Below, piece after piece: positions 1,528 through 63,765 of a stretch of 64,000 nucleotides of DNA (position 1 is its first letter; every line of letters starts with the position of its first letter). Below the pieces are notes generated by a model, which saw nothing but the letters and a program-made list of their open reading frames with translations, was not told the DNA's origin and did not search any database. The DNA comes from Ianthella basta (taxonomy: Eukaryota; Porifera; Demospongiae; Verongiida; Ianthellidae). Location: NCBI GenBank assembly GCA_964019415.1, contig OZ025884.1, positions 783,501 to 847,500 of the forward strand, read 5' to 3'. Both the position numbers and the translations under genes were made by a program.

Positions 1528-12568
<11,041 letters not shown>

Positions 12569-14387: not shown

Positions 14388-14638
14388 AAGCCAAGAAATA
14401 TAAAACTGGGAACTTATAAAGTTGGCAGTTGACTGAGAGAATCACGTGCCTATAACGACGTCAGACGAGTCATATCCTAAACGCCCTGGGCTACAAGTGT
14501 TGTTAAGCTCTCCAGGAGACTAGTACATTGCAACTAGCGCATTGGTGCGAACTCCGGAAGGTAGCTGCTGGCTACAGGTAATAAGACGTGGATTCAGAGA
14601 GTGTGGGCCATCGCCTGGCGCACGAGTGGTTTGGGTGA
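14388..14638. promoter_or_regulatory. Divergent promoter, SAM gene / SDHAF4, with CACGTG at 14443-14448
   Basis: 251 bases between opposed ATGs. A CACGTG E-box lies 56 bases upstream of the minus-strand ATG, with an ACGTCA half-site (14457-14462) beside it. Confidence 0.5.
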
Positions 14639-27754: not shown

Positions 27755-32827
<5,073 letters not shown>

Positions 32828-33099: not shown

Positions 33100-36000
33100 C
33101 TAGTCCTCTCCAAGATTCCTGATGATTTCTTTGGTGAACTCTGAGCAGGATGCATTACCACCGAGGTCTCCAGTCACATGCTAGTCACATGCACATCACA
33201 TGACAAGGGAGAGAAAAATGCAGAGAAAATCAAGAAGAAGAAAGGCCAGGAATACCTTACTTTTATACTTAAAACACATGTGTATGTAAATTCTGTGTAT
33301 TTCACACAAGAAAAACACTACAGTGAATTTTCACTGCTAAAGCATTGCTACATACAAACAATAGGATTTACTAACTTTGTACATGAGTAACATAGGAGAG
33401 GACACTATTAAATGGGTAGTGTCTAGGGGGACACTATTAAATGGGTAGTGTCTAGGGGGACACTATTAAATGGGTAGTGTCTAGGGGGACACTATTAAAT
33501 GGGTAGTGTCTAGGGGGACACTATTAAATGGGTAGTGTCCAGGGGGACACTATTAAATGGGTAGTGTCCTAGGGGGATACTATTAAATTGGTAGCATCTA
33601 GGGGGACACTATTAAATGGGTAGCGTCTAGGGGGACACTATTAAATGGGTAGTGTCCAGGGGGACACTATTAAATGGGTAGTGTCCTAGGGGGACACTAT
33701 TAAATTGGTAGCATCTAGGGGGACACTATTAAATGGGTAGCGTCTAGGGGGACACTATTAAATGGGTAGCGTCTAGGGGGACACTATTAAATGGTTAGTG
33801 TCTAGGGGGACACTATTAAATGGGTAGCATCTAGGGGGACACTATTAAATGGGTAGTGTCTAGGGGAACACTATTAAATGGGCAGTGTCTAGGGGGACAC
33901 TATTAAATGGGTAGCGTCTAGGGGGACACTATTAAATGGGTAGCGTCTAGGGGGACACTATTAAATGGGTAGCGTCTAAGGGGACACTATTAAATGGGTA
34001 GTGTCTAGGGGGACACTATTAAATGGGTAGTGTCCAGGGGGACACTATTAAATGGGTAGTGTCCTAGGGGGACACTATTAAATTGGTAGCATCTAGGGGG
34101 ACACTATTAAATGGGTAGTGTCTAGGGGGACAATATTAAATGGGTAGTGTCTAGGGGGACACTATTAATGGGTAGTGTCTAGGGGGACACTATTAAATGG
34201 GTAGTGTCTAGGGGGACACTATTAAATGGATAGCATCTAGGGGAACACTATTAAATGGGTAGTGTCTAGGGGGACACTATTAAATGGGTAGCGTCTAGGG
34301 GGACACTATTAAATGGGTAGCGTCTAGGGGGACACTATTAAATGGGTAGCATCTAGGGGGACACTATTAAATGGGTAGTGTCTAGGGGGACACTATTAAA
34401 TGGGTAGTGTCCTAGGGGGACACTATTAAATGGGTAGCATCCTAGGGGGACACTATTAAATGGGTAGTGTCTAGGGGGACACTATTAAATGGGTAGTGTC
34501 TAGGGGGACACTATTAAATGGGTAGTGTCTAGGGGGACACTATTAAATGGGTAGCGTCTAGGGGGACACTATTAATGGGTAGTGTCTAGGGGGACACTAT
34601 TAAATGGGTAGCATCTAGGGGGATACTATTAAATGGGTAGCATCTAGGGGGACACTATTAAATGGGTAGTGTCTAGGGGGACACTATTAAATGGGTAGTG
34701 TCCTAGGGGGACACTATTAAATGGGTAGTGTCTAGGGGGACACTATTAAATGGGTAGCATCTAGGGGGACACTATTAAATGGGTAGCATCTAGGGGGACA
34801 CTATTAAATGGGTAGTGTCTAGGGGGACACTATTAAATGGGTAGCGTCTAGGGGGACACTATTAAATGGGTAGCGTCTAGGGGGACACTATTAATGGGTA
34901 GTGTCCTAGGGGGACACTATTAAATGGGTAGCATCTAGGGGGACACTATTAAATGGGTAGCGTCTAGGGGGACACTATTAAATGGGTAGCGTCTAGGGGG
35001 ACACTATTAAATGGGTAGTGTCCTAGGGGGACACTATTAAATGGGTAGCATCTAGGGGGACACTATTAAATGGGTAGCGTCTAGGGGGACACTATTAAAT
35101 GGGTAGTGTCCTAGGGGGACACTATTAAATGGGTAGTGTCCTAGGGGGACACTATTAAATGGGTAGTGTCCTAGGGGGACACTATTAAATGGGTAGTGTC
35201 CTAGGGGGACACTATTAAATGGGTAGTGTCCTAGGTGGACACTATTAAATGGGTAGCGTCTAGGGGGACACTATTAAATGGGTAGTGTCCTAGGGGGACA
35301 CTATTAAATGGGTAGTGTCCTAGGGGGACACTATTAAATGGGTAGCGTCTAGGGGGACACTATTAAATGGGTAGCGTCTAGGGGGACACTATTAAATGGG
35401 TAGTGTCCTAGGGGGACACTATTAAATGGGTAGTGTCCTAGGGGGACACTATTAAATGGGTAGCGTCTAGGGGGACACTATTAAATGGGTAGCGTCTAGA
35501 GGGACACTATTAAATGGGTAGCGTCTAGGGGGACACTATTAAATGGGTAGTGTCCTAGGGGGACACTATTAAATGGGTAGTGTCTAGGGGGACACTATTA
35601 AAAGGGTAGTGTCCTAGGGGGACACTATTAAATGGGTAGTGTCTAGGAAAACACTATTAAATGGGTAACGTCTAGGGGGACACTATTAAATGGGTAGTGT
35701 CTAGGGGGACACTAATAATGGGTAGCGTCCTAGGGGGACACTATTTAATGGGTAGCGTCCTAGGGGGACACTATTAAATGGGTAGCGTCCTAGGGGGACA
35801 CTATTAAATGGGTATTAAATGGGTAGCGTCCTAGGGGGACACTATTAAATGGGTAGTGTCTAGGGGGACACTATTAAATGGGTAGCGTCTAAGGAGACAC
35901 TATTAAATGGGTAGTGTCTAGGGGAACACTATTAAATGGGTAGTGTCTAGGGGGACACTATTAAATGGGTAGTGTCTAGGGGGACACTATTAAATGGATA

Positions 36001-39000
36001 GTGTCTAGGGGGACACTATTAAATGGGTAGCGTCTAGGGGGACACTATTAAATGGGTAGTGTCTAGGGGGACACTATTAAATGGGTAGTGACTAGGGGGA
36101 CACTATTAAATGGGTAGTGTCTAGGGGGACACTATAAAATGGGCAGTGTCTAGGGGGACACTATTAAATGGGTAGTGTCTAGGGAGACACTATTAAATGG
36201 GTAGCATCTAGGGGGACACTATTAAATGGGTAGCGTCTAGGGGGACACTATTAAATGGGTAGCGTCCTAGGGGGACACTATTTAATGGGTAGCGTCCTAG
36301 GGGGACACTATTAAATGGGTAGTGTCTAGGGGGACACTATTAAATGGGTAGTGTCCTAGGGGGACACTATTAAATGGGTAGTGTCTAGGGGGACACTATT
36401 AAATGGGTAGTGTCCTAGGGGGACACTATTAAATGGGTAGTGTCCTAGGGGGACACTATTAAATGGATAGCGTCTAGGGGGACACTATTAAATGGGTAGT
36501 GTCCTAGGGGGACACTATTAAATGGGTAGTGTCTAGGGGGACACTATTAAATGGGTAGCGTCTAGGGGGACACTATTAAATGGGTAGTGTCTAGGGGGAC
36601 ACTATTAAATGGGTAGTGTCTAGGGGGACACTATTAAATAAGTAGCGTCTAGGGGGACACTATTAAATGGGTAGTGTCTAGGGGGACACTATTAAATGGG
36701 TAGTGTCTAGGGGGACACTATTAAATAAGTAGCGTCTAGGGAGACACTATTAAATGGGTAGCGTCTAGGGGGACACTATTAAATGGGTAGTGTCTAGGGG
36801 GACACTATTAAATGGGTAGCGTCTAGGGGGACACTATTAAATGGGTAGCGTCTAGGGGGACACTATTAAATGGGTAGTGTCCTAGGGGGACACTATTAAA
36901 TGGGTAGTGTCTAGGGGGACACTATTAAATGGGTAGCGTCTAGGGGGACACTATTAAATGGGTAGTGTCTAGGGGGACACTATTAAATGGGTAGCGTCTA
37001 GGGGGACACTATTAAATGGGTAGTGTCTAGGGGGACACTATTAAATGGGTAGTGTCCTAGGGGACACTATTAAATGGGTAGTGTCCTAGGGGGACACTAT
37101 TAAATGGGTAGTGTCCTAGGGGGACACTATTAAATGGGTAGTGTCTAAGGGGACACTATTAAATGGGTAGTGTCTAGGGGGACACTATTAAAAGGGTAGT
37201 GTCCTAGGGGGACACTATTAAATGGGTAGTGTCCTAGGGGGACACTATTAAATGGGTAGTGTCTAGGGGGACACTATTAAATGGGTAGTGTCTAGGGGGA
37301 CACTATTAAATGGGTAGTGTCCTAGGGGGACACTATTAAATGGGTAGTGTCCTAGGGGGACACTATTAAATGGGTAGTGTCTAGGGGGACACTATTAAAT
37401 GGGTAGTGTCTAGGGGGACACTATTAAATGGGTAGCGTCCTAGGGGGACACTATTAAATGGGTAGTGTCTAGGGGGACACTATTAAATGGGTAGCGTCTA
37501 GGGGGACACTATTAAATGGGTAGTGTCTAGGGGGACACAATTAAATGGGTAGTGTCTAGGGGGACACTATTAAATGGGTAGTGTCCTAGGGGGACACTAT
37601 TAAATGGGTAGTGTCTAGGGAGACACTATTAAATGGGTAGTGTCTAGGGGGACACTATTAAATGGGTAGCGTCTAGGGGGACACTATTAAATGGGTAGTG
37701 TCTAGGGGGACACTATAAAATGGGTAGTGTCCTAGGGGGACACTATTAAATAGGTAGTGTCCTAGGGGGACACTATTAAATGGGTAGCGTCTAGGGGGAC
37801 ACTATTAAATGGGTAGTGTCTAGGGGGACACTATTAAATGGGTAGCGTCTAGGGGGACACTATTAAATGGGTAGTGTCTAGGGGGACACTATTAAATGGG
37901 TAGTGTCTAGGGGGACACTATTAAATGGGTAGCGTCCTAGGGGGACACTATTAAATGGGTAGTGTCTAGGGGGACACTATTAAATGGGTAGCGTCTAGGG
38001 GGACACTATTAAATGGGTAGTGTCTAGGGGGACACTATTAAATGGGTAGTGTCTAGGGGGACACTATTAAATGGGTAGTGTCTAGGGGGACACTATTAAA
38101 TGGGTAGTGTCTAGGGGGACACTATTAAATGGGTAGTGTCTAGGGGGACACTATTAAATGGGTAGTGTCTAGGGGGACACTATTAAATGGGTAGCGTCCT
38201 AGGGGGACACTATTAAATGGGTAGTGTCTAGGGGGACACTATTAAATAAGTAGTGTCTAGGGGAACAGTATTAAATGGGTAGTGTCTAGGGGGACACTAT
38301 TAAATGGGTAGTGTCCTAGGGGGACACTATTAAATGGGTAGCGTCTAGGGGGACACTATTAAATGGGTAGTGTCTAGGGGGACACTATTAAATGGGTAGT
38401 GTCTAGGGGGACACTATTAAATGGGTAGTGTCTAGGGGGACACTATTAAATGGGCAGTGTCCTAGGGGGACACTATTAAATGGGTAGTGTCCTAGGGGGA
38501 CACTATTAAATGGGTAGCGTCCTAGGGGGACACTATTAAATGGGTAGCGTCCTAGGGGGACACTATTAAATGGGTAGTGTCTAGGGGGACACTATTAAAA
38601 GGGTAGCGTCCTAGGGGGACACTATTAAATGGATAGTGTCTAGGGGGACACTATTAAATGGATAGCGTCTAGGGGGACACTATTAAATGGGTAGTGTCTA
38701 GGGGGACACTATTAAATGGATAGCGTCTAGGGGGACACTATTAAATGGGTAGCGTCTAGGGGGACACTATTAAATGGGTAGCGTCTAGGGGGACACTATT
38801 AAATGGGTAGTGTCTAGGGGGACACTATTAAATGGGTAGCGTCTAGGGGGACACTATTAAATGGGTAGCGTCTAGGGGGACACTATTAAATGGGTAGCGT
38901 CTAGGGGGACACTATTAAATGGGTAGTGTCTAGGGGGACACTATTAAATGGGTAGTGTCCTAGGGGGACACCATTAAATGGGTAGCGTCTAGGGGGACAC

Positions 39001-42000
39001 TATTAAATGGGTAGCGTCTAGGGGGACACTATTAAATGGGTAGCATCTAGGGGGACACTATTAAATGGGTAGCATCTAGGGGGACACTATTAAATGGGTA
39101 GTGTCTAGGGGGACACTATTAAATGGGTAGCGTCTAGGGGGACACTATTAAATGGGTAGTGTCTAGGGGGACACTATTAAATGGGTAGCGTCTAGGGGGA
39201 CACTATTAAATGGGTAGCGTCTAGGGGGACACTATTAAATGGGTAGCATCTAGGGGGACACTATTAAATGGGTAGCGTCTAGGGGGACACTATTAAATGG
39301 GTAGTGTCTAGGGGGACACTATTAAATGGGTAGCGTCTAGGGGGACACTATTAAATGGGTAGCATCCTAGGGGGACACTATTAAATGGGTAGTGTCCTAA
39401 GGGGACACTATTAAATGGGTAGTGTCCTAAGGGGACACTATTAAATGGGTAGTGTCCTAGGGGGACACTATTAAATGGGTAGTGTCTAGGGGGACACTAT
39501 TAAATGGGTAGCGTCTAGGGGGACACTATTAAATGGGTAGCATCTAGGGGGACACTATTAAATGGGTAGCATCTAGGGGGACACTATTAAATGGGTAGTG
39601 TCTAGGGGGACACTATTAAATGGGTAGCGTCTAGGGGGACACTATTAAATGGGTAGTGTCTAGGGGGACACTATTAAATGGGTAGCGTCTAGGGGGACAC
39701 TATTAAATGGGTAGCGTCTAGGGGGACACTATTAAATGGGTAGCATCTAGGGGGACACTATTAAATGGGTAGCGTCTAGGGGGACACTATTAAATGGGTA
39801 GTGTCTAGGGGGACACTATTAAATGGGTAGCGTCTAGGGGGACACTATTAAATGGGTAGCATCCTAGGGGGACACTATTAAATGGGTAGTGTCCTAAGGG
39901 GACACTATTAAATGGGTAGTTTCCTTAGGGGGACACTATTAAATGGGTAGCGTCTAGGGGGACACTATTAAATGGGTAGTGTCTAGGGGGACACTATTAA
40001 ATGGGTAGCATCCTAGGGGGACACTATTAAATGGGTAGCGTCTAGGGGGACACTATTAAATGGGTAGCATCCTAGGGGGACACTATTAAATGGGTAGTGT
40101 CCTAGGGGGACACTATTAAATGGGTAGTGTCCTAGGGGGACACTATTAAATGGGTAGTGTCCTAGGGGGACACTATTAAATGGGTAGTGTCCTAGGGGGA
40201 CACTATTAAATGGGTAGCGTCTAGGGGGACAGTATTAAATGGGTAGTGTCCTAGGGGGACACTATTAAATGGGTAGTGTCCTAGGGGGACACTATTAAAT
40301 GGGTAGTGTCCTAGGGGGACACTATTAAATGGGTAGTGTCCTAGGGGGACACTATTAAATGGGTAGTGTCTAGGGGGACACTATTAAATGGGTAGCGTCT
40401 AGGGGGACACTATTAAATGGGTAGTGTCTAGGGGGACACTATTAAATGGGTAGCGTCTAGGGGGACACTATTAAATGGGTAGTGTCTAGGGGGACACTAT
40501 TAATGGGTAGCGTCCTAGGGGGACACTATTTAATGGGTAGCGTCCTAGGGGGACACTATTAAATGGGTAGTGTCTAGGGGGACACTATTAAATGGGTAGT
40601 GTCTAGGGGGACACTATTAAATGGGTAGTGTCTAGGAGGACACTATTAAATGGGTAGTGTCCTATGGGGACACTATTAAATGGGTAGTGTCCAAGGGGGA
40701 CACTATTAAATGGGTAGTGTCCTAGGGGGACACTATTAAATGGGTAGTGTCAAGGGGGACACTATTAAATGGGTAGCGTCTAGGGGGACACTATTAAATG
40801 GGTAGTGTCTAGGGGGACACTATTAAATGGGTAGCGTCTAGGGGGACACTATTAAATGGGTAGCGTCTAGGGGGACACTATTAAATGGGTAGTGTCCTAG
40901 GGGGACACTATTAAATGGGTAGCGTCTAGGGGGACACTATTAAATGGGTAGTGTCTAGGGGGACACTATTAAATGGGTAGTGTCCTAGGGGGACACTATT
41001 AAATGGGTAGTGTCTAGGGGGACACTATTAAATGGGTAGTGTCTAGGAGGACACTATTAAATGGGTAGTGTCTAGGGGGACACTATTAAATGGGTAGTGT
41101 CATAGGGGGACACTATTAAATTGGTAGCATCTAGGGAGACACTATTAAATGGGTAGCGTCTAGGGGGACACTATTAAATGGGTAGTGTCTAGGGGGACAC
41201 TATTAAATGGGTAGTGTCTAGGGGGACACTATTAAATGGGTAGTGTCCTAGGGGGACACCATTAAATGGGTAGCGTCTAGGGGGACACTATTAAATGGGT
41301 AGTGTCTAGGGGGACACTATTAAATGGGTAGTGTCTAGGGGGACACTATTAAAAGGGTAGTGTCTAGGGGGACAGTATTAAATGGGTAGTGTCTAGGGGG
41401 ACACTATAAAATGGGTAGTGTCCTAGGGGGACACTATTAAATGGGTAGTGTCTAGGGGGACACTATTAAATGGGTAGTGTCTAGGGGGACACTATTAAAT
41501 GGGTAGTGTCTAGGGGGACACTATTAAATGGGTAGCGTCTAGGGTGACACTATAAAATGGGTAGTGTCCTAGGGGGACACTATTAAATGGGTAGTGTCTA
41601 GGGGGACACTATTAAATGGGTAGTGTCTAGGGGGACACTATAAAATGGGTAGTGTCCTAGGGGGACACTATTAAATGGGTAGTGTCTAGGGGGACACTAT
41701 TAAATGGGTAGTGTCTAGGGGGACACTATTAAATGGGTAGTGTCTAGGGGGACACTATTAAATGGGTAGTGTCTAGGGGGACACTATTAAATGGGTAGCG
41801 TCTAGGGGGACACTATTAAATGGGTAGCGTCTAGGGGGACACTATTAAATGGGTAGTGTCTAGGGGGACACTATTAAATGGGCAGCGTCCTAGGGGGACA
41901 CTATTAAATGGGTAGTGTTTAGGGGGACATTATTAAATGGGTAGCGTCTAGGGGGACACTATTAAATGGGTAGTGTCTAGGGGGACACTATTAAAAGGGT

Positions 42001-45000
42001 AGTGTCCTAGGGGGACACTATTAAATGGGTAGTGTCTAGGGGGACACTATTAAAAGGGTAGTGTCTAGGGGGACACTATTAAATGGGTAGCGTCTAGGGG
42101 GACACTATTAAATGGGTAGTGTCTAGGGGGACACTATTAAAAGGGTAGTGTCCTAGGGGGACACTATTAAATGGGTAGTGTCCTAGGGGGATACTATTAA
42201 ATGGGTAGTGTCTAGGGGGACACTATTAAATGGGTAGCGTCTAGGGGGACACTATTAAATGGGTAGTGTCTAGGGGGACACTATTAATGGGTAGTGTCCT
42301 AGGGGGACACTATTTAATGGGTAGCGTCCTAGGGGGACACTATTAAATGGGTAGTGTCTAGGGGGACACTATTAATGGGTAGTGTCCTAGGGGGACACTA
42401 TTTAATGGGTAGCGTCCTAGGGGGACACTATTAAATGGGTAGTGTCTAGGGGGACACTATTAAATGGGTAGTGTCTAGGGGGACACTATTAAATGGGTAG
42501 TGTCTAGGGGGACACTATTAAATGGGTAGTGTCTAGGGGGATACTATTAAAAGGGTAGTGTCTAGGGGGACACTATTAAATGGGTAGCGTCTAGGGGGAC
42601 ACTATTAAATGGGTAGTGTCTAGGGGGATACTATTAAAAGGGTAGTGTCTAGGGGGACACTATTAAATGGGTAGCGTCTAGGGGGACACTATTAAATGGG
42701 TAGTGTCTAGGGGGACACTATTAATGGGTAGTGTCCTAGGGGGACACTATTTAATGGGTAGCGTCCTAGGGGGACACTATTAAATGGGTAGTGTCTAGGG
42801 GGACACTATTAATGGGTAGTGTCCTAGGGGGACACTATTTAATGGGTAGCGTCCTAGGGGGACACTATTAAATGGGTAGTGTCTAGGGGGACACTATTAA
42901 ATGGGTAGTGTCTAGGGGGACACTATTAAATGGGTAGTGTCTAGGAGGACACTATTAAATGGGTAGTGTCCTATGGGGACACTATTAAATGGGTAGTGTC
43001 CAAGGGGGACACTATTAAATGGGTAGTGTCCTAGGGGGACACTATTAAATGGGTAGTGTCAAGGGGGACACTATTAAATGGGTAGCGTCTAGGGGGACAC
43101 TATTAAATGGGTAGCGTCTAGGGGGACACTATTAAATGGGTAGCGTCTAGGGGGACACTATTAAATGGGTAGTGTCCTAGGGGGACACTATTAAATGGGT
43201 AGCGTCTAGGGGGACACTATTAAATGGGTAGTGTCTAGGGGGACACTATTAAATGGGTAGTGTCCTAGGGGGACACTATTAAATGGGTAGTGTCTAGGGG
43301 GACACTATTAAATGGGTAGTGTCTAGGAGGACACTATTAAATGGGTAGTGTCTAGGGGGACACTATTAAATGGGTAGTGTCATAGGGGGACACTATTAAA
43401 TTGGTAGCATCTAGGGAGACACTATTAAATGGGTAGTGTCTAGGGGGACACTATTAAATGGGTAGTGTCTAGGGGGACACTATTAAATGGGTAGTGTCTA
43501 GGGGGACACTATTAAATGGGTAGTGTCTAGGGGGACACTATTAAATGGGTAGTGTCCTAGGGGGACACCATTAAATGGGTAGCGTCTAGGGGGACACTAT
43601 TAAATGGGTAGTGTCTAGGGGGACACTATTAAATGGGTAGTGTCTAGGGGGACACTATTAAATGGGTAGTGTCTAGGGGGACACTATTAAATGGGTAGTG
43701 TCTAGGGGGACACTATAAAATGGGTAGTGTCCTAGGGGGACACTATTAAATGGGTAGTGTCTAGGGGGACACTATTAAATGGGTAGTGTCTAGGGGGACA
43801 CTATTAAATGGGTAGTGTCTAGGGGGACACTATTAAATGGGTAGCGTCTAGGGTGACACTATAAAATGGGTAGTGTCCTAGGGGGACACTATTAAATGGG
43901 TAGTGTCTAGGGGGACACTATTAAATGGGTAGTGTCTAGGGGGACACTATAAAATGGGTAGTGTCCTAGGGGGACACTATTAAATGGGTAGTGTCTAGGG
44001 GGACACTATTAAATGGGTAGTGTCTAGGGGGACACTATTAAATGGGTAGTGTCTAGGGGGACACTATTAAATGGGTAGCGTCTAGGGGGACACTATTAAA
44101 TGGGTAGTGTCTAGGGGGACACTATTAAATGGGTAGCGTCCTAGGGGGACACTATTAAATGGGTAGTGTTTAGAAGGACATTATTAAATGGGTAGCGTCT
44201 AGGGGGACACTATTAAATGGGTAGTGTCTAGGGGGACACTATTAAAAGGGTAGTGTCCTAGGGGGACACTATTAAATGGGTAGTGTCTAGGGGGACACTA
44301 TTAAAAGGGTAGTGTCTAGGGGGACACTATTAAATGGGTAGCGTCTAGGGGGACACTATTAAATGGGTAGTGTCTAGGGGGACACTATTAAAAGGGTAGT
44401 GTCCTAGGGGGACACTATTAAATGGGTAGTGTCTAGGGGGACACTATTAAATGGGTAGTGTCCTAGGGGGACACTATTAAATGGGTAGTGTCTAGGGGGA
44501 CACTATTAAATGGGTAGTGTCTAGGGGGACACTATAAAATGGGTAGTGTCCTAGGGGGATACTATTAAATGGGTAGTGTCTAGGGGGACACTATTAAATG
44601 GGTAGCGTCTAGGGGGACACTATTAAATGGGTAGTGTCTAGGGGGACACCATTAAATGGGTAGTGTCTAGGGGGACACTATAAAATGGGTAGTGTCCTAG
44701 GGGGACACTATTAAATGGGTAGTGTCTAGGGGGACACTATTAAATGGGTAGTGTCTAGGGGGACACTATTAAATGGGTAGTGTCTAGGGGGACACTATTA
44801 AATGGGTAGTGTCTAGGGGGACACTATTAAATGGGTAGTGTCTAGGGGGACACTATTAAATGGGTAGCGTCCTAGGGGGACACTATTAAATGGGTAGTGT
44901 CTAGGGGGACACTATTAAATGGGTAGCGTCTAGGGGGACACTATTAAATGGGTAGTGTCTAGGGGGACACTATTAAAAGGGTAGTGTCCTAGGGGGACAC

Positions 45001-48000
45001 TATTAAATGGGTAGTGTCTAGGGGGACACTATTAAAAGGGTAGTGTCTAGGGGGACACTATTTAATGGGTAGTGTCTAGGGGGACACTATTAAATGGGTA
45101 GTGTCTAGGGGGACACTATTAAAAGGGTAGTGTCCTAGGGGGACACTATTAAATGGGTAGTGTCTAGGGGGACACTATTAAAAGGGTAGTGTCCTAGGGG
45201 GACACTATTAAATGGGTAGTGTCTAGGGGGACACTATTAAATGGGTAGTGTCCTAAGGGGACACTATTAAATGGATAGCGTCTAGGGGGACACTATTAAA
45301 TGGGTAGCGTCTAGGGGGACACTATTAAATGGGTAGTGTCTAGGGGGACACTATTAAATGGGTAGTGTCTAGGGGGACACTATTAAATGGGTAGTGTCTA
45401 GGGGGACACTATTAAATGGGTAGCGTCTAGGGGGACACTATTAAATGGGTAGCGTCTAGGGGGACACTATTAAATGGGTAGTGTCTAGGGGGACACTATT
45501 AAATGGATAGTGTCTAGGGGGACACTATTAAATGGGTAGTGTCTAGGGGGACACTATTAAATGGGTAGCGTCTAGGGGGACACTATTAAATGGGTAGTGT
45601 CTAGGGGGACACTATTAAATGGGTAGCGTCTAGGGGGACACTATTAAATGGGTAGCGTCTAGGGGGACACTATTAAATGGGTAGTGTCCTAGGGGGACAC
45701 TATTAAATGGGTAGTGTCCTAGGGGGACACTATTAAATGGGTAGTGTCCTAGGGGGACACTATTAAATGGGTAGCGTCTAGGGGGACACTATTAAATGGG
45801 TAGCGTCTAGGGGGACACTATTAAATGGGTAGTGTCTAGGGGGACACTATTAAATGGGTAGTGTCTAGGGGGACACTATTAAATGGGTAGTGTCTAGGAG
45901 GACACTATTAAATGGGCAGTGTCTAGGGAGACACTATTAAATGGGTAGCGTCTAGGGGGACAGTATTAAATGGGTAGTGTCTAGGGGGACACTATTAAAT
46001 GGGTAGTGTCCTAGGGGGACACTATTAAATGGGTAGTGTCTAGGGGGACACTATTAAATGGGTAGCGTCTCGGGGGACACTATTAAATGGGTAGCGTCTA
46101 GGGGGACACTATTAAATGGGTAGAGTCTAGGGGGACACTATTAAATGAGTAGAATCTAGGGGGACACTATTAAATGGGTAGTGTCTAGGGGGACACTATT
46201 AAATGGGTAGTGTCCTAGGGGGATACTATTAAATAAGTAGTGTCTAGGGGGACACTATTAAATGGGTAGCATCTAGGGGGACACTATTAAATGGGTAGTG
46301 TCTAGGGGGACACTATTAAATGGGTAGTGTCCTAGGGGGACACTATTAAATGGGTAGTGTCTAGGGGGACACTATTAAATGGGTAGTGTCTAGGAGGACA
46401 CTATTAAATGGGTAGTGTCTAGGGAAACACTATTAAATGGGTAGTGTCCTAGGGGGACACTATTAAATTGGTAGCATCTAGGGGGACACTATTAAATGGG
46501 TAGCGTCTAGGGGGACACTATTAAATGGGTAGTGTCTAGGGGGACACTATTAAATGGGTAGTGTCTAGGGGGACACTATTAAATGGGTAGTGTCCTAGGG
46601 GGACACTATTAAATTGGTAGCATCTAGGGGGACACTATTAAATGGGTAGCGTCTAGGGGGACACTATTAAATGGGTAGTGTCTAGGGGGACACTATTAAA
46701 TGGGTAGTGTCTAGAGGGACACTATTAAATGGGTAGTGTCCTAGGGGGACACTATTAAATGGGTAGCGTCTAGGGGGACACTATTAAATGGGTAGTGTCT
46801 AGGGGGACACAATTAAATGGGTAGTGTCTAGGGGGACACTATTAAATGGGTAGAATCTAGGGGGACACTATTAAATGGGTAGTGTCTAGGGGGACACTAT
46901 TAAATGGGTAGTGTCCTAGGGGGATACTATTAAATAAGTAGTGTCTAGGGGGACACTATTAAATGGGTAGTGTCCTAGGGGGACACTATTAAATGGGTAG
47001 CATCTAGGGGGACACTATTAAATGGGTAGTGTCTAGGGGGACACTATTAAATGGGTAGTGTCCTAGGGGGACACTATTAAATGGGTAGTGTCTAGGGGGA
47101 CACTATTAAATGGGTAGTGTCTAGGAGGACACTATTAAATGGGTAGTGTCTAGGGGGACACTATTAAATGGGTAGTGTCCTAGGGGGACACTATTAAATT
47201 GGTAGCATCTAGGGGGACACTATTAAATGGGTAGCGTCTAGGGGGACACTATTAAATGGGTAGTGTCTAGGGGGACACTATTAAATGGGTAGTGTCTAGG
47301 GGGACACTATTAAATGGGTAGTGTCCTAGGGGGACACTATTAAATGGGTAGCGTCTAGGGGGACACTATTAAATGGGTAGTGTCTAGGGGGACACTATTA
47401 AATGGGTAGTGTCTAGGGGGACACTATTAAATGGGTAGTGTCCTAGGGGGACACTATTAAATGGGTAGCGTCTAGGGGGACACTATTAAATGGGTAGTGT
47501 CTAGGGGGACACTATTAAATGGGTAGCGTCCTAGGGGGACACTATTAAATGGGTAGTGTCTAGGGGGACACTATTAAATGGGTAGCGTCTAGGGGGACAC
47601 TATTAAATGGGTAGTGTCTAGGGGGACACTATTAAAAGGGTAGTGTCCTAGGGGGACACTATTAAATGGGTAGTGTCTAGGGGGACACTATTAAAAGGGT
47701 AGTGTCTAGGGGGACACTATTAAATGGGTAGCGTCTAGGGGGACACTATTAAATGGGTAGTGTCTAGGGGGACACTATTAAAAGGGTAGTGTCCTAGGGG
47801 GACACTATTAAATGGGTAGTGTCTAGGGGGACACTATTAAATGGGTAGTGTCTAGGGGGACACTATTAAATGGGTAGTGTCTAGGGGGACACTATTAAAT
47901 GGGTAGTGTCTAGGGGGACACTATAAAATGGGTAGTGTCCTAGGGGGACACTATTAAATGGGTAGTGTCTAGGGGGACACTATTAAATGGGTAGCGTCTA

Positions 48001-51000: not shown

Positions 51001-54000
51001 GTAGCGTCTAGGGGGACACTATTAAATGGGTAGTGTCTAGGGGGACACTATTAAATGGGTAGTGTCTAGGGGGACACTATTAAATGGGTAGTGTCTAGGG
51101 GGACACTATTAAATGGGTAGTGTCTAGGGGGACACTATTAAATGGGTAGTGTCTAGGAGGACACTATTAAATGGGTAGTGTCTAGGGGGACACTATTAAA
51201 TGGGTAGTGTCTAGGGGGACACTATTAAATGGGTAGTGTCTAGGAAGACACTATTAAATGGGTAGCGTCTAGGGGGACACTATAAAATGGGTAGTGTCCT
51301 AGGGGGACACTATTAAATGGGTAGTGTCTAGGGGGACACTATTAAATGGGTAGTGTCTAGGGGGACACTATTAAATGGGTAGTGTCCTAGGGGGACACTA
51401 TTAAATGGGTAGTGTCTAGGGGGACACTATTAAATGGGTAGTGTCTAGGGGGACACTATTAAATGGGTAGTGTCTAGGGGGACACTATTAAATGGGTAGT
51501 GTCTAGGGGGACACTATTAAATGGGTAGTGTCTAGGGGGACACTATTAAATGGGTAGTGTCTAGGGAAACACTATTAAATGGGTAGCGTCCTAGGGGGAC
51601 ACTATTAAATGGGTAGTGTCTAGGGGGACACTATTAAATGGGTAGCGTCTAGGGGGACACTATTAAATGGGTAGTGTCTAGGGGGACACTATTAAAAGAG
51701 TAGTGTCCTAGGGGGACACTATTAAATGGGTAGTGTCTAGGGGGACACTATTAAAAGGGTAGTGTCTAGGGGGACACTATTAAATGGGTAGCGTCTAGGG
51801 GGACACTATTAAATGGGTAGTGTCTAGGGGGACACTATTAAAAGGGTAGTGTCCTAGGGGGACACTATTAAATGGGTAGTGTCTAGGGGGACACTATTAA
51901 ATGGGTAGTGTCCTAGGGGGACACTATTAAATGGGTAGTGTCTAGGGGGACACTATTAAATGGGTAGTGTCTAGGGGGACACTATAAAATGGGTAGTGTC
52001 CTAGGGGGACACTATTAAATGGGTAGTGTCTAGGGGGACACTATTAAATGGGTAGCGTCTAGGGGGACACTATTAAATGGGTAGTGTCTAGGGGGACACT
52101 ATTAAATGGGTAGTGTCTAGGGGGACACTATAAAATGGGTAGTGTCCTAGGGGGACACTATTAAATGGGTAGTGTCTAGGGGGACACTATTAAATGGGTA
52201 GTGTCTAGGGGGACACTATTAAATGGGTAGTGTCTAGGGGGACACTATTAAATGGGTAGTGTCTAGGGGGACACTATTAAATGGGTAGTGTCTAGGGGGA
52301 CACTATTAAATGGGTAGCGTCCTAGGGGGACACTATTAAATGGGTAGTGTCTAGGGGGACACTATTAAATGGGTAGCGTCTAGGGGGACACTATTAAATG
52401 GGTAGTGTCTAGGGGGACACTATTAAAAGGGTAGTGTCCTAGGGGGACACTATTAAATGGGTAGTGTCTAGGGGGACACTATTAAATGGGTAGCGTCTAG
52501 GGGGATACTATTAAATGGGTAGTGTCTAGGGGGACACTATTAAAAGGGTAGTGTCCTAGGGGGACACTATTAAATGGGTAGTGTCTAGGGGGACACTATT
52601 AAATGGGTAGTGTCCTAGGGGGACACTATTAAATGGGTAGTGTCTAGGGGGACACTATTAAATGGGTAGTGTCTAGGGGGACACTATTAAATGGGTAGTG
52701 TCTAGGGGAACACTATAAAATGGGTAGTGTCCTAGGGGGACACTATTAAATGGGTAGTGTCGAGGGGGACACTATTAAATGGGTAGCGTCTAGGGGGACA
52801 CTATTAAATGGGTAGTGTCTAGGGGGACACTATTAAATGGGTAGTGTCTAGGGGGACACTATAAAATGGGTAGTGTCCTAGGGGGACACTATTAAATGGG
52901 TAGTGTCTAGGGGGACACTATTAAATGGGTAGCGTCTAGGGGGACACTATTAAATGGGTAGTGTCTAGGGGGACACTATTAAAAGGGTAGTGTCCTAGGG
53001 GGACACTATTAAATGGGTAGTGTCTAGGGGGACACTATTAAATGGGTAGTGTCTAGGGGGACACTATTAAATGGGTAGTGTCTAGGGGGACACTAATAAA
53101 TGGGTAGTGTCTAGGGGGACACTATTAAAAGGGTAGTGTCCTAGGGGGACACTATTAAATGGGTAGTGTCTAGGGGGACACTATTAAAAGGGTAGTGTCC
53201 TAGGGGGACACTATTAAATGGGTAGTGTCTAGGGGGACACTATTAAATGGGTAGTGTCCTAAGGGGACACTATTAAATGGATAGCGTCTAGGGGGACACT
53301 ATTAAATGGGTAGCGTCTAGGGGGACACTATTAAATGGGTAGCGTCTAGGGGGACACTATTAAAAGGGTAGTGTCCTAGGGGGACACTATTAAATGGGTA
53401 GTGTCTAGGGGGACACTATTAAATGGGTAGTGTCTAGGGGGACACTATTAAATGGGTAGCGTCTAGGGGGACACTATTAAATGGGTAGCGTCTAGGGGGA
53501 CACTATTAAATGGGTAGTGTCTAGGGGGACACTATTAAATGGATAGTGTCTAGGGGGACACTATTAAATGGGTAGTGTCTAGGGGGACACTATTAAATGG
53601 GTAGCGTCTAGGGGGACACTATAAAATGGGTAGTGTCCTAGGGGGACACTATTAAATGGGTAGTGTCTAGGGGGACACTATTAAATGGGTAGTGTCTAGG
53701 GGGACACTATAAAATGGGTAGTGTCCTAGGGGGACACTATTAAATGGGTAGTGTCTAGGGGGACACTATTAAATGGGTAGTGTCTAGGGGGACACTATTA
53801 AATGGGTAGTGTCTAGGGGGACACTATTAAATGGGTAGTGTCTAGGGGGACACTATTAAATGGGTAGTGTCTAGGGGGACACTATTAAATGGGTAGTGTC
53901 TAGGGGGACACTATTAAATGGGTAGTGTCTAGGGGGACACTATTAAATGGGTAGTGTCTAGGGGGACACTATTAAATGGGTAGCGTCCTAGGGGGACACT

Positions 54001-57000
54001 ATTAAATGGGTAGTGTCTAGGGGGACACTATTAAATGGGTAGCGTCTAGGGGGACACTATTAAATGGGTAGTGTCTAGGGGGACACTATTAAAAGGGTAG
54101 TGTCCTAGGGGGACACTATTAAATGGGTAGTGTCTAGGGGGACACTATTAAAAGGGTAGTGTCAAGGGGGACACTATTAAATGGGTAGTGTCTAGGGGGA
54201 CACTATTAAATGGGTAGTGTCTAGGGGGACACTATTAAAAGGGTAGTGTCCTAGGGGGACACTATTAAATGGGTAGTGTCTAGGGGGACACTATTAAAAG
54301 GGTAGTGTCTTAGGGGGACACTATTAAATGGGTAGTGTCTAGGGGGACACTATTAAATGGGTAGTGTCCAAAGGGGACACTATTAAATGGGTAGTGTCTA
54401 GGGGGACACTATTAAATGGGTAGCGTCTAGGGGGACACCATTAAATGGGTAGTGTCTAGGGGGACACTATTAAATGGGTAGTGTCTAGGGGGACACTATT
54501 AAATGGGTAGTGTCTAGGGGGACACTATTAAATGGGTAGCGTCTAGGGGGACACTATTAAATGGGTAGTGTCTAGGGGGACACTATTAAATGGATAGTGT
54601 CTAGGGGGACACTATTAAATGGGTAGTGTCTAGGGGGACACTATTAAATGGGTAGCGTCTAGGGGGACACTATTAAATGGGTAGTGTCTAGGGGGACACT
54701 ATTAAATGGGTAGCGTCTAGGGGGACACTATTAAATGGGTAGTGTCTAGGGGGACACTATTAAATGGGTAGTGTCCTAGGGGGACACTATTAAATGGGTA
54801 GTGTCCTAGGGGGACACTATTAAATGGGTAGTGTCCTAGGGGGACACTATTAAATGGGTAGCGTCTAGGAGGACACTATTAAATGGGTAGCGTCAAGGGG
54901 GACACTATTAAATGGGTAGTGTCTAGGGGGACACTATTAAATGGGTAGTGTCCTAGGGGGACACTATTAAATGGGTAGTGTCTAGGAGGACACTATTAAA
55001 TGGGCAGTGTCTAGGGAGACACTATTAAATGGGTAGCGTCTAGGGGGACACTATTAAATGGGTAGCGTCTAGGGGGACACTATTAAATGGGTAGTGTCTA
55101 GGGGGACACTATTAAATGGGTAGTGTCTAGGGGGACACTATTAAATGGGTAGTGTCTAGGAGGACACTATTAAATGGGCAGTGTCTAGGGAGACACTATT
55201 AAATGGGTAGCGTCTAGGGGGACACTATTAAATGGGTAGCGTCTAGGGGGACACTATTAAATGGGTAGTGTCTAGGGGGACACTATTAAATGGGTAGTGT
55301 CTAGGGGGACACTATTAAATGGGTAGTGTCTAGGGGGACACTATAAAATGGGTAGTGTCCTAGGGGGACACTATTAAATGGGTAGTGTCTAGGGGGACAC
55401 TATTAAATGGGTAGCGTCTAGGGGGACAGTATTAAATGGGTAGTGTCTAGGGGGACACTATAAAATGGGTAGTGTCCTAGGGGGACACTATTAAATGGGT
55501 AGTGTCTAGGGGGACACTATTAAATGGGTAGTGTCTAGGGGGACACTATTAAATGGGTAGTGTCTAGGGGGACACTATTAAATGGGTAGTGTCTAGGGGG
55601 ACACTATTAAATGGGTAGTGTCTAGGGGGACACTATTAAATGGGTAGCGTCCTAGGGGGACACTATTAAATGGGTAGTGTCTAGGGGGACACTATTAAAT
55701 GGGTAGCGTCTAGGGGGACACTATTAAATGGGTAGTGTCTAGGGGGACACTACTAAAAGGGTAGTGTCCTAGGGGGACACTATTAAATGGGTAGTGTCTA
55801 GGGGGACACTATTAAAAGGGTAGTGTCTAGGGGGACACTATTAAATGGGTAGTGTCTAGGGGGACACTATTAAATGGGTAGTGTCTAGGGGGACACTATT
55901 AAAAGGGTAGTGTCCTAGGGGGACACTATTAAATGGGTAGTGTCTAGGGGGACACTATTAAAAGGGTAGTGTCCTAGGGGGACACTATTAAATGGGTAGT
56001 GTCTAGGGGGACACTATTAAATGGGTAGTGTCCAAAGGGGACACTATTAAATGGATAGCGTCTAGGGGGACACTATTAAATGGGTAGCGTCTAGGGGGAC
56101 ACTATTAAATGGGTAGTGTCTAGGGGGACACTATTAAATGGGTAGTGTCTAGGGGGACACTATTAAATGGGTAGTGTCTAGGGGGACACTATTAAATGGG
56201 TAGCATCTAGGGGGACACTATTAAATGGGTAGTGTCTAGGGGGACACTATTAAATGGGTAGCGTCTAGGGGGACACTATTAAATGGGTAGTGTCTAGGGG
56301 GACACTATTAAATGGGTAGTGTCCTAGGGGGACACTATTAAATGGGTAGTGTCCTAGGGGGACACTATTAAATGGGTAGTGTCCTAGGGGGACACTATTA
56401 AATGGGTAGCGTCTAGGAGGACACTATTAAATGGGTAGCGTCTAGGGGGACACTATTAAATGGGTAGTGTCTAGGGGGACACTATTAAATGGGTAGTGTC
56501 TAGGGGGACACTATTAAATGGGTAGTGTCTAGGAGGACACTATTAAATGGGCAGTGTCTAGGGAGACACTATTAAATGGGTAGCGTCTAGGGGGACACTA
56601 TTAAATGGGTAGTGTCTAGGGGGACACTATTAAATGGGTAGTGTCTAGGGGGACACTATTAAATGGGTAGTGTCTAGGAGGACACTATTAAATGGGTAGC
56701 GTCTAGGGGGACACTATTAAATGGGTAGTGTCCTAGGGGGACACTATTAAATGGGTAGCGTCTAGGGGGACACTATTAAATGGGTAGCGTCTAGGGGGAC
56801 ACTATTAAATGGGTAGCGTCTAGGGGGACACTATTAAATGGGTAGCGTCTAGGGGGACACTATTAAATGGGTAGAATCTAGGGGGACACTATTAAATGGG
56901 TAGCGTCTAGGGGGACACTATTAAATGGGTAGTGTCCTAGGGGGATACTATTAAATGGGTAGTGTCCTAGGGGGACACTATTAAATGGGTAGTGTCCTAG

Positions 57001-60000
57001 GGGGACACTATTAAATGGGTAGCATCAAGGGGGACACTATTAAATGGGTAGTGTCTAGGGGGACACTATTAAATGGGTAGTGTCCTAGGGGGACACTATT
57101 AAATGGGTAGTGTCTAGGGGGACACTATTAAATGGGTAGTGTCTAGGAGGACACTATTAAATGGGTAGTGTCTAGGGGGACACTATTAAATGGGTAGTGT
57201 CCTAGGGGGACACTATTAAATTGGTAGCATCTAGGGGGACACTATTAAATGGGTAGCGTCTAGGGGGACACTATTAAATGGGTAGTGTCTAGGGGGACAC
57301 TATTAAATGGGTAGTGTCTAGGGGGACACTATTAAATGGGTAGTGTCCTAGGGGGACACTATTAAATGGGTAGCGTCCTAGGGGGACACTATTAAATGGG
57401 TAGTGTCTAGGGGGACACTATTAAAAGGGTAGTGTCTAGGGGGAAACTAATAAATGGGTAGCGTCTAGGGGGACACTATTAAATGGGTAGTGTCTAGGGG
57501 GACACTATTAAATGGGTAGCGTCTAGGGGGACACTATTAAATGGGTAGTGTCCTAGGGGGACACTATTAAATGGGTAGCGTCTAGGGGGACACTATTAAA
57601 TGGGTAGCGTCTAGGGGGACACTATTAAATGGGTAGTGTCTAGGGGGACACTATTAAATGGGTAGTGTCTAGGGGGACACTATTAAATGGGTAGTGTCTA
57701 GGGGGACACTATAAAATGGGTAGTGTCCTAGGGGGACACTATTAAATGGGTAGTGTCTAGGGGGACACTATTAAATGGGTAGTGTCTAGGGGGACACTAT
57801 TAAATGGGTAGTGTCTAGGGGGACACTATTAAATGGGTAGCGTCTAGGGGGACACTATAAAATGGGTAGTGTCCTAGGGGGACACTATTAAATGGGTAGT
57901 GTCTAGGGGGACACTATTAAATGGGTAGTGTCTAGGGGGACACTATAAAATGGGTAGTGTCCTAGGGGGACACTATTAAATGGGTAGTGTCTAGGGGGAC
58001 ACTATTAAATGGGTAGTGTCTAGGGGGACACTATTAAATGGGTAGTGTCTAGGGGGACACTATTAAATGGGTAGTGTCTAGGGGGACACTATTAAATGGG
58101 TAGTGTCTAGGGGGACACTATTAAATGGGTAGCGTCCTAGGGGGACACTATTAAATGGGTAGTGTCTAGGGGGACACTATTAAATGGGTAGCGTCTAGGG
58201 GGACACTATTAAATGGGTAGTGTCTAGGGGGACACTATTAAAAGGGTAGTGTCCTAGGAGGACACTATTAAATGGGTAGTGTCCTAGGGGGACACTATTA
58301 AAAGGGTAGTGTCTAGGGGGACACTATTAAATGGGTAGCGTCTAGGGGGACACTATTAAATGGGTAGTGCCTAGGGGGACACTATTAAAAGGGTAGTGTC
58401 CTAGGGGGACACTATTAAATGGGTAGTGTCTAGGGGGACACTATTAAATGGGTAGTGTCCTAGGGGGACACTATTAAATGGGTAGTGTCTAGGGGGACAC
58501 TATTAAATGGGTAGTGTCTAGGGGGACACTATAAAATGGGTAGTGTCCTAGGAAGACACTATTAAATGGGTAGTGTCTAGGGGGACACTATTAAATGGGT
58601 AGCGTCTAGGGGGACACTATTAAATGGGTAGTGTCTAGGGGGACACTATTAAATGGGTAGTGTCCTAGGGGGACACTATAAAATGGGTAGTGTCCTAGGG
58701 GGACACTATTAAATGGGTAGTGTCTAGGGGGACACTATTAAATGGCTAGTGTCTAGGGGGACACTATTAAATGGGTAGCGTCTAGGGGGACACTATTAAA
58801 TGGGTAGTGTCTAGGGGGACACTATTAAATGGGTAGTGTCTAGGGGGACACTATTAAATGGGTAGCGTCTAGGGGGACACTATTAAATGGGTAGCGTCTA
58901 GGGGGACACTATTAAATGGGTAGTGTCTAGGGGGACACTATTAAATGGGTAGTGTCTAGGGGGACACTATTAAATGGGTAGCGTCTAGGGGGACACTATT
59001 AAATGGGTAGTGTCTAGGGGGACACTATTAAATGGGTAGTGTCTAGGGGGACACTATTAAATGGGTAGTGTCTAGGGGGACACTATTAAATGGGTAGTGT
59101 CTAGGGGGACACTATTAAAAGGGTAGTGTCCTAGGGGGACACTATTAAATGGGTAGTGTCTAGGGGGACACTATTAAAAGGGTAGTGTCTAGGGGGACAC
59201 TATTAAATGGGTAGTGTCTAGGGGGACACTATTAAATGGGTAGTGTCTAGGGGGACACTATTAAAAGGGTAGTGTCCTAGGGGGACACTATTAAATGGGT
59301 AGTGTCCTAGGGGGACACTATTAAATGGGTAGTGTCTAGGGAGACACTATTAAAAGGGTAGTGTCCTAGGGGGACACTATTAAATGGGTAGTGTCTAGGG
59401 GGACACTATTAAATGGGTAGTGTCCTAAGGGGACACTATTAAATGGATAGCGTCTAGGGGGACACTATTAAATGGGTAGCGTCTAGGGGGACACTATTAA
59501 ATGGGTAGTGTCTAGGGGGACACTATTAAATGGGTAGTGTCTAGGGGGACACTATTAAATGGGTAGTGTCTAGGGGGACACTATTTAATGGGTAGCGTCT
59601 AGGGGGACACTATTAAATGGGTAGCGTCTAGGGGGACACTATTAAATGAGTAGTGTCTAGGGGGACACTATTAAATGGATAGTGTCTAGGGGGACACTAT
59701 TAAATGGGTAGTGTCTAGGGGGACACTATTAAATGGGTAGCGTCTAGGGGGACACTATTAAATGGGTAGTGTCTAGGGGGACACTATTAAATGGGTAGCG
59801 TCTAGGGGGACACTATTAAATGGGTAGTGTCTAGGGGGACACTATTAAATGGGTAGTGTCCTAGGGGGACACTATTAAATGGGTAGTGTCCTAGGGGGAC
59901 ACTATTAAATGGGTAGTGTCCTAGGGGGACACTATTAAATGGGTAGCGTCTAGGGGGACACTATTAAATGGGTAGTGTCTAGGGGGACACTATTAAATGG

Positions 60001-63000
60001 GTAGTGTCTAGGGGGACACTATTAAATGGGTAGTGTCTAGGAGGACACTATTAAATGGGCAGTGTCTAGGGAGACACTATTAAATGGGTAGCGTCTAGGG
60101 GGACACTATTAAATGGGTAGTGTCTAGGGGGACACTATTAAATGGGTAGTGTCTAGGGGGACACTATTAAATGGGTAGCGTCTAGGGGGACACTATTAAA
60201 TGGGTAGCGTCTAGGGGGACACTATTAAATGGGTAGCGTCTAGGGGGACACTATTAAATGGGTAGCGTCTAGGGGGACACTATTAAATGGGTAGAATCTA
60301 GGGGGACACTATTAAATGGGTAGCGTCTAGGGGGACACTATTAAATGGGTAGTGTCCTAGGGGGATACTATTAAATGGGTAGTGTCCTAGGGGGACACTA
60401 TTAAATGGGTAGTGTCCTAGGGGGACACTATTAAATGGGTAGCATCAAGGGGGACACTATTAAATGAGTAGTGTCTAGGGGGACACTATTAAATGGATAG
60501 TGTCTAGGGGGACACTATTAAATGGGTAGTGTCTAGGGGGACACTATTAAATGGGTAGTGTCTAGGGGGACACTATTAAATGGGTAGTGTCTAGGGGGAC
60601 ACTATAAAATGGGTAGTGTCCTAGGGGGACACTATTAAATGGGTAGTGTCTAGGGGGACACTATTAAATGGGTAGCGTCTAGGGGGACACTATTAAATGG
60701 GTAGTGTCTAGGGGGACACTATTAAATGGGTAGTGTCTAGGGGGACACTATTAAATGGGTAGTGTCCTAGGGGGACACTATTAAATGGGTAGCGTCTAGG
60801 GGGACACTATTAAATGGGTAGTGTCTAGGGGGACACTATTAAATGGGTAGTGTCTAGGGGGACACTATTAAATGGGTAGTGTCTAGGGGGACACTATAAA
60901 ATGGGTAGTGTCCTAGGGGGACACTATTAAATGGGTAGTGTCTAGGGGGACACTATTAAATGGGTAGTGTCTAGGGGGACACTATTAAATGGGTAGTGTC
61001 TAGGGGGACACTATTAAATGGGTAGCGTCTAGGGGGACACTATAAAATGGGTAGTGTCCTAGGGGGACACTATTAAATGGGTAGTGTCTAGGGGGACACT
61101 ATTAAATGGGTAGTGTCTAGGGGGACACTATAAAATGGGTAGTGTCCTAGGGGGACACTATTAAATGGGTAGTGTCTAGGGGGACACTATTAAATGGGTA
61201 GTGTCTAGGGGGACACTATTAAATGGTTAGTGTCTAGGGGGACACTATTAAATGGGTAGTGTCTAGGGGGACACTATTAAATGGGTAGTGTCTAGGGGGA
61301 CACTATTAAATGGGTAGCGTCCTAGGGGGACACTATTAAATGGGTAGTGTCTAGGGGGACACTATTAAATGGGTAGCGTCTAGGGGGACACTATTAAATG
61401 GGTAGTGTCTAGGGGGACACTATTAAAAGGGTAGTGTCCTAGGAGGACACTATTAAATGGGTAGTGTCCTAGGGGGACACTATTAAAAGGGTAGTGTCTA
61501 GGGGGACACTATTAAATGGGTAGCGTCTAGGGGGACACTATTAAATGGGTAGTGCCTAGGGGGACACTATTAAAAGGGTAGTGTCCTAGGGGGACACTAT
61601 TAAATGGGTAGTGTCTAGGGGGACACTATTAAATGGGTAGTGTCCTAGGGGGACACTATTAAATGGGTAGTGTCTAGGGGGACACTATTAAATGGGTAGT
61701 GTCTAGGGGGACACTATAAAATGGGTAGTGTCCTAGGAAGACACTATTAAATGGGTAGTGTCTAGGGGGACACTATTAAATGGGTAGCGTCTAGGGGGAC
61801 ACTATTAAATGGGTAGTGTCTAGGGGGACACTATTAAATGGGTAGTGTCCTAGGGGGACACTATAAAATGGGTAGTGTCCTAGGGGGACACTATTAAATG
61901 GGTAGTGTCCAGGGGGACACTATTAAATGGCTAGTGTCTAGGGGGACACTATTAAATGGGTAGTGTCTAGGGGGACACTATTAAATGGGTAGTGTCTAGG
62001 GGGACACTATTAAATGGGTAGTGTCTAGGGGGACACTATTAAATGGGTAGCGTCCTAGGGGGACACTATTAAATGGGTAGTGTCTAGGGGGACACTATTA
62101 AATGGGTAGTGTCTAGGGGGACACTATTAAATGGGTAGTGTCTAGGGGGACACTATTAAAAGGGTAGTGTCCTAGGGGGACACTATTAAATGGGTAGTGT
62201 CTAGGGGGACACTATTAAAAGGGTAGTGTCTAGGGGGACACTATTAAATGGGTAGTGTCTAGGGGGACACTATTAAATGGGTAGTGTCTAGGGGGACACT
62301 ATTAAAAGGGTAGTGTCCTAGGGGGACACTATTAAATGGGTAGTGTCTAGGGAGACACTATTAAAAGGGTAGTGTCCTAGGGGGACACTATTAAATGGGT
62401 AGTGTCTAGGGGGACACTATTAAATGGGTAGTGTCCTAAGGGGACACTATTAAATGGATAGCGTCTAGGGGGACACTATTAAATGGGTAGCGTCTAGGGG
62501 GACACTATTAAATGGGTAGTGTCTAGGGGGACACTATTAAATGGGTAGTGTCTAGGGGGACACTATTAAATGGGTAGTGTCTAGGGGGACACTATTTAAT
62601 GGGTAGCGTCTAGGGGGACACTATTAAATGGGTAGCGTCTAGGGGGACACTATTAAATGAGTAGTGTCTAGGGGGACACTATTAAATGGATAGTGTCTAG
62701 GGGGACACTATTAAATGGGTAGTGTCTAGGGGGACACTATTAAATGGGTAGCGTCTAGGGGGACACTATTAAATGGGTAGTGTCTAGGGGGACACTATTA
62801 AATGGGTAGCGTCTAGGGGGACACTATTAAATGGGTAGTGTCTAGGGGGACACTATTAAATGGGTAGTGTCCTAGGGGGACACTATTAAATGGGTAGTGT
62901 CCTAGGGGGACACTATTAAATGGGTAGTGTCCTAGGGGGACACTATTAAATGGGTAGCGTCTAGGGGGACACTATTAAATGGGTAGCGTCTAGGGGGACA

Positions 63001-63765
63001 CTATTAAATGGGTAGTGTCTAGGGGGACACTATTAAATGGGTAGTGTCTAGGGGGACACTATTAAATGGGTAGTGTCTAGGAGGACACTATTAAATGGGC
63101 AGTGTCTAGGGAGACACTATTAAATGGGTAGCGTCTAGGGGGACACTATTAAATGGGTAGTGTCTAGGGGAACACTATTAAATGGGTAGTGTCTAGGGGG
63201 ACACTATTAAATGGGTAGTGTCTAGGGGGACACTATTAAATGGGTAGCGTCTAGGGGGACACTATTAAATGGGTAGCGTCTAGGGGGACACTATTAAATG
63301 GGTAGTGTCCTAGGGGGACACTATCAAATGGGTAGTGTCTAGGGGGACACTATTAAATGGGTAGTGTCTAGGGGGATACTTTAAAATGGGTAGCGTCCTA
63401 TGTAGAAGTCAGTGCAAGAGAGTGTTGTTAGAAACAATCACTTCTACTGTAAATTGAATACACACCACACTTACTCACACACTCAATCAACTAAAACTTC
63501 ATACAAACTTCATACGTATACTCCAAGAAACTAATGCAAGCAAATGCCGCTTTTGTGAAATAAAGGTACATGGACACACACTTATCTACATCCCAAAACA
63601 CCCCCACCTCACCTTCTTCTCCCTGATGGTCTTAAAGACTGCCCTCTCAATGTTCTGTGCATGCTTGGGCAGCTCCATATACCTCAACATCATCACTGCA
63701 CTCAGGAGTAGAGCAGTGGGGTTGGCCTTGTCCTGGCCAGCTATGTCAGGGGCCGTGCCATGAAC
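33100..63765 (-). CDS. IDH3A: Isocitrate dehydrogenase [NAD] subunit alpha, last two exons split by a 30-kb intron
   Basis: Penultimate exon 63613-63765 (51 codons: [46 protein letters not shown]) and last exon 33100-33180 (26 residues and stop: [20 protein letters not shown] then RNLGED) join in frame, phase 0, donor AAG|GTGAGG and acceptor ACTAG|CAT. The joined C-terminus follows human IDH3A ([20 protein letters not shown] ... [20 protein letters not shown]), and DLGGNA is typical of the alpha rather than the beta/gamma subunits. The enzyme oxidises isocitrate to 2-oxoglutarate in the mitochondrial matrix. Upstream exons lie beyond the right edge; acceptor CCCCAG|GTT at 63766-63765 shows this. 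The intron 33181-63612 is almost wholly the 29-bp array, very unusual here. I see no other exon inside it. Confidence 0.9.
33398..63402. repeat. 30-kb tandem array of a 29/30-bp unit, about 1,000 copies, in IDH3A intron
   Basis: The unit reads TAGTGTCTAGGGGGACACTA followed by TTAAATGGG (29 bp); a frequent 30-bp form has TCCTAG for TCTAG. By length there are about 1,020 copies, not counted one by one. Common variants are TAGCGTC and TAGCATC for TAGTGTC, AAAGGG for AAATGGG, and ATAAAA for ATTAAA; rare ones include CTATGGGG, GAAGGACATT, and a dropped A (ATTAATGGG). Copies are highly similar end to end, with variants grouped in longer repeated blocks. Every unit carries stops in all frames (TAG, TAA), so there is no open frame above 60 codons on either strand. 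No other sequence interrupts it. Flanks 33181-33397 and 63403-63612 are ordinary intron sequence. Confidence 0.98.

Follow-up and report, generated by a model that had tools for sequence, protein, structure and literature searches.

The locus studied here raises the question of how some 30 kb of tandem repeat came to fill the last intron of IDH3A, a core metabolic gene, and whether its presence matters to that gene. The window, i.e., the whole stretch of DNA that was analyzed, comprises 64,000 nucleotides of Ianthella basta (contig OZ025884.1, positions 783,501 to 847,500 of the forward strand). The features needed for the argument are, in window positions:

33400..63397, plus strand: array of about 1,026 minisatellite units, each of 29/30 bp, with the consensus GGACACTATTAAATGGGTAGTGTC(C)TAGGG (TRF and unit split)
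63613..63765, minus strand: penultimate coding exon of IDH3A, 153 nt, 51 codons (the open stretch containing the exon matches Pfam Iso_dh at 3.4e-19; protein alignment)
33100..33180, minus strand: final coding exon of IDH3A, with 26 codons followed by the stop (assembly search, protein alignment, in-frame join)
33181..63612, minus strand: last intron of IDH3A, 30,432 bases, as placed by protein alignment, with GT-AG ends
63398..63612, minus strand: 215 non-array bases at the 5' end of the intron
33181..33399, minus strand: 219 non-array bases at the 3' end of the intron, where a pyrimidine-rich tract precedes the acceptor
31772..32410, minus strand: open stretch matching asparaginyl-tRNA synthetase domains (Pfam AsnRS_N and tRNA_anti-codon), the next gene downstream

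TRF reports the repeat as one array with a period of 29, 1026.8 copies, 94% matches, and 1% indels. A unit split made independently of TRF yields 1,026 units, spaced by 29 bases in 784 cases and by 30 in 237, in agreement with the roughly 1,000 head-to-tail copies of an earlier note on this DNA, while counting with a 23-base core gives 1,017 units. The array is thus present in the assembly far above chance, and its head-to-tail units fall within the roughly 10-100 bp of a minisatellite. The GC skew lies between 0.425 and 0.497 across the 29 kilobases of 34001-63000, which are wholly array. The earlier note also described the repeat as pure from exon to exon; this holds for the array, which is uninterrupted, but not for the ends of the intron, which together hold 434 non-array bases.

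Long tandem arrays are a usual site of assembly errors, and one could suppose that the array exists but that its length or order is wrong. However, its units comprise 99 distinct sequences, the commonest in 413 copies, and the longest exact repeats within it measure 682, 679, and 472 bases, so that it could be placed by reads of at least 10 kb; an artefact of collapse or expansion is therefore unlikely. Non-repeat sequence flanks the array at both sides, and the assembly consists of 209 Mb in 96 contigs. An artefact of this kind is accordingly given little credence here. If the assembly is correct, some 30 kb of repeat have to be traversed by the polymerase.

Other repeats occur in the neighborhood. 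TRF finds a second tight minisatellite at 10184-11663 (41-bp unit, 36 copies, 98% matches), a 21-bp unit at 9241-9814 (27 copies, 91% matches), and several CA/TG arrays in the window. Beyond the window, a CT-rich short-period repeat of about 4 kb (L017:9330-10000 and L018:1-3463) is open over long distances in each of the three minus-strand frames.

The host gene was identified from the penultimate and the last coding exon of IDH3A, the sequence just past the window end reading N. The two exons join in frame to give a 77-residue product, residues 1-74 of which align without a gap over the junction with human IDH3A (PDB 5gre_A, E 1.3e-26), and the ends of the intron are GT-AG (donor AAG|GTGAGG, acceptor TGACTAG|CAT). 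From this alignment we infer the splice junction. The gene, the position of the array in its last intron, 26 codons before the stop, and the size of the array are therefore as the earlier note had proposed. The array makes up 29,998 of the 30,432 bases of the intron.

With the junction placed by protein alignment, it could be argued that the array has cut the gene, such that IDH3A ends elsewhere and exon 33100-33180 is now disused. However, this exon retains an open frame matching the IDH3A C terminus, the acceptor retains its pyrimidine-rich tract, and read-through of the donor would add only 8 codons before a stop. Moreover, when the 77-residue product was searched against the 209-Mb assembly, only these two exons matched, with no second copy of the IDH3A tail. 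We consider a severed gene highly improbable. Two further uninterrupted frames were noticed in the window, one at 21955-22932 matching DUF1152 (PF06626) and one at 13242-14441 combining a SAM domain with a DNA-binding domain of the Brinker type.

An alternative 3' end within the intron, which the earlier note had suggested, finds no backing in the signals. On the sense (minus) strand, AATAAA is absent from the whole 30.4-kb intron and ATTAAA from the 434 non-array bases, while the array holds 11 ATTAAA on this strand against 970 on the other; as mentioned above, read-through meets a stop after 8 codons. Orientation-dependent avoidance of poly(A) signals was considered and rejected, because a lone array built on a fixed unit represents just one event and its strand bias is therefore no evidence of selection. 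The delayed or limited expression, the heterochromatin, and the recombination site also suggested in the earlier note are not indicated by any of the tests made here.

The unit is not peculiar to IDH3A, contrary to what the earlier note had implied. In the 209-Mb assembly, a 24-mer of the unit is matched 5,339 times when up to 2 mismatches are allowed, compared to 0 times for the reversed control. The window accounts for 992 of them, and the window together with the other stretches examined for 4,731; the remaining 608 were not located, and further arrays may exist among them. Besides the window array, which lies on the contig here called C17, long arrays of the unit are found on three other contigs:

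C3, 11,255,766-11,262,557 (6.8 kb) and 11,263,427-11,279,896 (16.5 kb): sister arrays
C8, 7,969,805-8,000,515 (30.7 kb): sister array
C10, 1,857,912-1,888,805 (30.9 kb), 1,889,210-1,912,144 (22.9 kb), and 1,916,716 to at least 1,934,890 (at least 18.2 kb): sister arrays

As these places are unrelated, the location of the window array in IDH3A looks incidental. The C3 array, for example, terminates some 0.3 kb away from an ADP-ribosylglycohydrolase open frame. The variant and spacer make-up differs from array to array, so that the four contigs together carry what is expected of a satellite family, namely several long arrays, each with its own composition. The closest pair is the window array and that of C8, whose cores differ by 4.5-4.6%, compared to 4.0% and 4.2% within the arrays. 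Decay of CpG as the origin of the TAGCGTC/TAGTGTC/TAGCATC variants is plausible, but it rests on one site and was not retained.

As to how the unit spread, a carrier shared by the array flanks (0.4-3.1 kb each) was sought, and the flanks proved to share a single 56-base match, which lies some 2 kb from the window array. A search for MITE-like single copies with a strict pattern (the exact unit followed by two non-G bases at the expected start of the next unit), which would miss diverged copies, gave 1 match, inside an array. The exact 24-mer has 0 matches in genome_contigs and viral_contigs, which are prokaryote and viral collections in which its absence is little informative.

Several observations were made around the sister arrays. 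In the region C8:7966800-8003500, the C8 array has direct copies of one segment, 75-84% identical, on either side, and the same contig carries four related segments, each of at least 4-5 kb with main pieces 82-94% identical, each with a short degenerate array of 8-12 units; these short arrays are possibly an older state of the repeat family. Scattered diverged units are also present at C17:6.852-6.855 Mb. Inside the C10 arrays lies an LTR element (C10:1912144-1916716), whose 255-base end repeats are 100% identical in the compared pieces and which is probably a recent insertion; its open frame is, judging by its motifs, Ty3-like.

The unit is an imperfect palindrome, in which the inverted repeats GGACACTA and TAGTGTCC flank a short loop. 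A 32-base piece of it folds as DNA with -4.6 kcal/mol (z -5.1). One 290-base stretch of the array was folded as RNA, with an energy of -91.4 kcal/mol for the IDH3A sense strand (z -13.4 relative to shuffles) and -133.3 kcal/mol for the opposite strand (z -15.6); in the predicted folds, distant units are paired together in long stems.

Such folding, far better than that of shuffles on both strands, would be compatible with a hairpin under selection in the transcript, e.g., for looping of the intron that joins the splice sites, or as double-stranded RNA. In the window array, Watson-Crick pairs account for 94.4% of the arm cells, G.U pairs in the sense RNA would account for another 5.0%, and the left arm is less variable than the loop (0.58% and 1.70%, respectively). 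However, the right arm (5.06%) is more variable than the loop, and the G.U excess is due mainly to a single T-to-C variant at core position 20, present in 284 units. Arms changing together, as expected of a functional RNA hairpin, are scarcely seen, with 2 compensatory double changes against 397 one-sided ones in the window array, and 9 against 1,142, 1 against 415, and 24 against 1,473 in C3, C8, and C10, respectively. In C10, the variability is 6.06% in the left arm, 5.94% in the loop, and 3.18% in the right arm. Since the arms seldom covary and show no consistent deficit of variation relative to the loop, the palindrome appears to be inherent in the unit rather than a retained RNA structure. 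The same palindrome is, in addition, present in the arrays at other loci. Selection on the hairpin is thus very unlikely. Rfam gives 0 matches in the window at gathering score.

A bolder suggestion, which we rate as improbable, is that the nascent last intron, because every unit is palindromic, would fold into kilobases of near-continuous double-stranded RNA in every cell that expresses IDH3A. Such a fold could loop out the 30 kb for splicing and steadily feed editing or small-RNA pathways. If true, this would tie an endogenous supply of double-stranded RNA to a housekeeping gene.

The order of the unit variants bears on how the array grew. Recurring 8-unit words are held by 247 of the 1,019 8-unit positions, compared to a mean of 2.9 and a maximum of 19 in 200 shuffles. 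The identity of neighboring units is flat, 0.212 at lag 1 against 0.210-0.213 at lags 20-499, and runs of identical units are shuffle-like, the longest having 8 units (shuffle mean 7.2) and runs of 5 or more comprising 45 units (37.2 in shuffles). Taken together, these results favor the copying of multi-unit blocks, by unequal exchange or break repair, over single-unit slippage. Slippage may have made a local contribution, as the identity at lags 2-5 is slightly raised (0.239) and that of the core peaks at lag 5 (0.429 compared to 0.371 expected).

On the basis of these sequence comparisons, we consider it likely that the array is one member of a dispersed family of hairpin minisatellites, that it has grown mainly by duplication of multi-unit blocks, and that it is transcribed, spliced out, and mainly a passenger. 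A few units would have arisen in, or been copied into, an otherwise 434-base intron of IDH3A, and the array would then have expanded by unequal exchange or break repair shifting blocks of units. It would be transcribed along with IDH3A on every pass and removed by ordinary splicing, and its tolerance may be explained by the intactness of the two splice sites with their flanks and by the small number of poly(A) signals on the sense strand. One result for which the passenger reading gives no account is the near-equal length of the window array (30.0 kb), the C8 array (30.7 kb), and the first C10 block (30.9 kb).

The array might instead act on IDH3A, with about 30 kb of structured repeat slowing elongation or splicing, or inducing silent chromatin, and thereby lowering or timing the output of the gene. 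The intron is 70 times as long with the array as without it, and precedents for an influence of intronic repeats can be found. Long alleles of TRACT, an intronic repeat of human CACNA1C, accompany lower CACNA1C expression in cultured fibroblasts and lower levels of a nearby non-coding RNA in testis, the other 47 tissues being unchanged (PMC13131567). The satellite introns of Drosophila kl-3 and kl-5 depend on a pair of RNA-binding proteins to be transcribed or processed (PMC6508621). However, the other arrays of the family sit in unrelated places, and we regard an acting array as rather unlikely. As long TRACT alleles are associated with lower expression in fibroblasts and testis while the other 47 tissues are unchanged, a modest effect on IDH3A output is, by analogy, possible.

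The locus offers a clean natural case in which to ask whether structured repeat, extending over tens of kilobases within a housekeeping gene, comes at any price in transcription or splicing, and the sister arrays outside IDH3A provide controls for array growth. If the length of the array does affect IDH3A output, minisatellite turnover would be linked to central metabolism. Literature searches on an IDH3A intron minisatellite and on sponge and repeat work gave, among the matches listed, nothing on this array in titles and starts of abstracts.

Satellite families whose arrays are dispersed through gene-rich DNA are known, e.g., the Drosophila 1.688 family. The present family resembles them in that one unit family occupies several chromosomal sites with differing local make-up.

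The closest known case for the array itself is TRACT, which is an intronic VNTR with a 30-bp unit, many unit variants, and a length of 3-30+ kb (PMC13131567). The two share the unit size, the many variants, and the confinement to one intron, and by arithmetic TRACT reaches up to about 1,000 copies. They differ in that the growth of TRACT is read as proceeding via perfect repeat tracts (PMC13131567), whereas here runs of identical units equal those of shuffles and multi-unit blocks are duplicated. The IDH3A array, moreover, has a palindromic unit common to arrays on other contigs and is known from a single assembly. The introns of kl-3 and kl-5 are likewise filled by tandem repeats, but these are megabases of simple satellites in spermatocyte genes whose transcription is shown (PMC6508621), whereas here a 30-kb minisatellite of 29/30 bp in a core metabolic gene is known from sequence alone. 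Intronic minisatellites of such size are thus already known from TRACT, and satellite-filled introns at a much larger scale (PMC6508621). The less usual traits of the IDH3A array are its palindromic unit and its sister arrays on other contigs.
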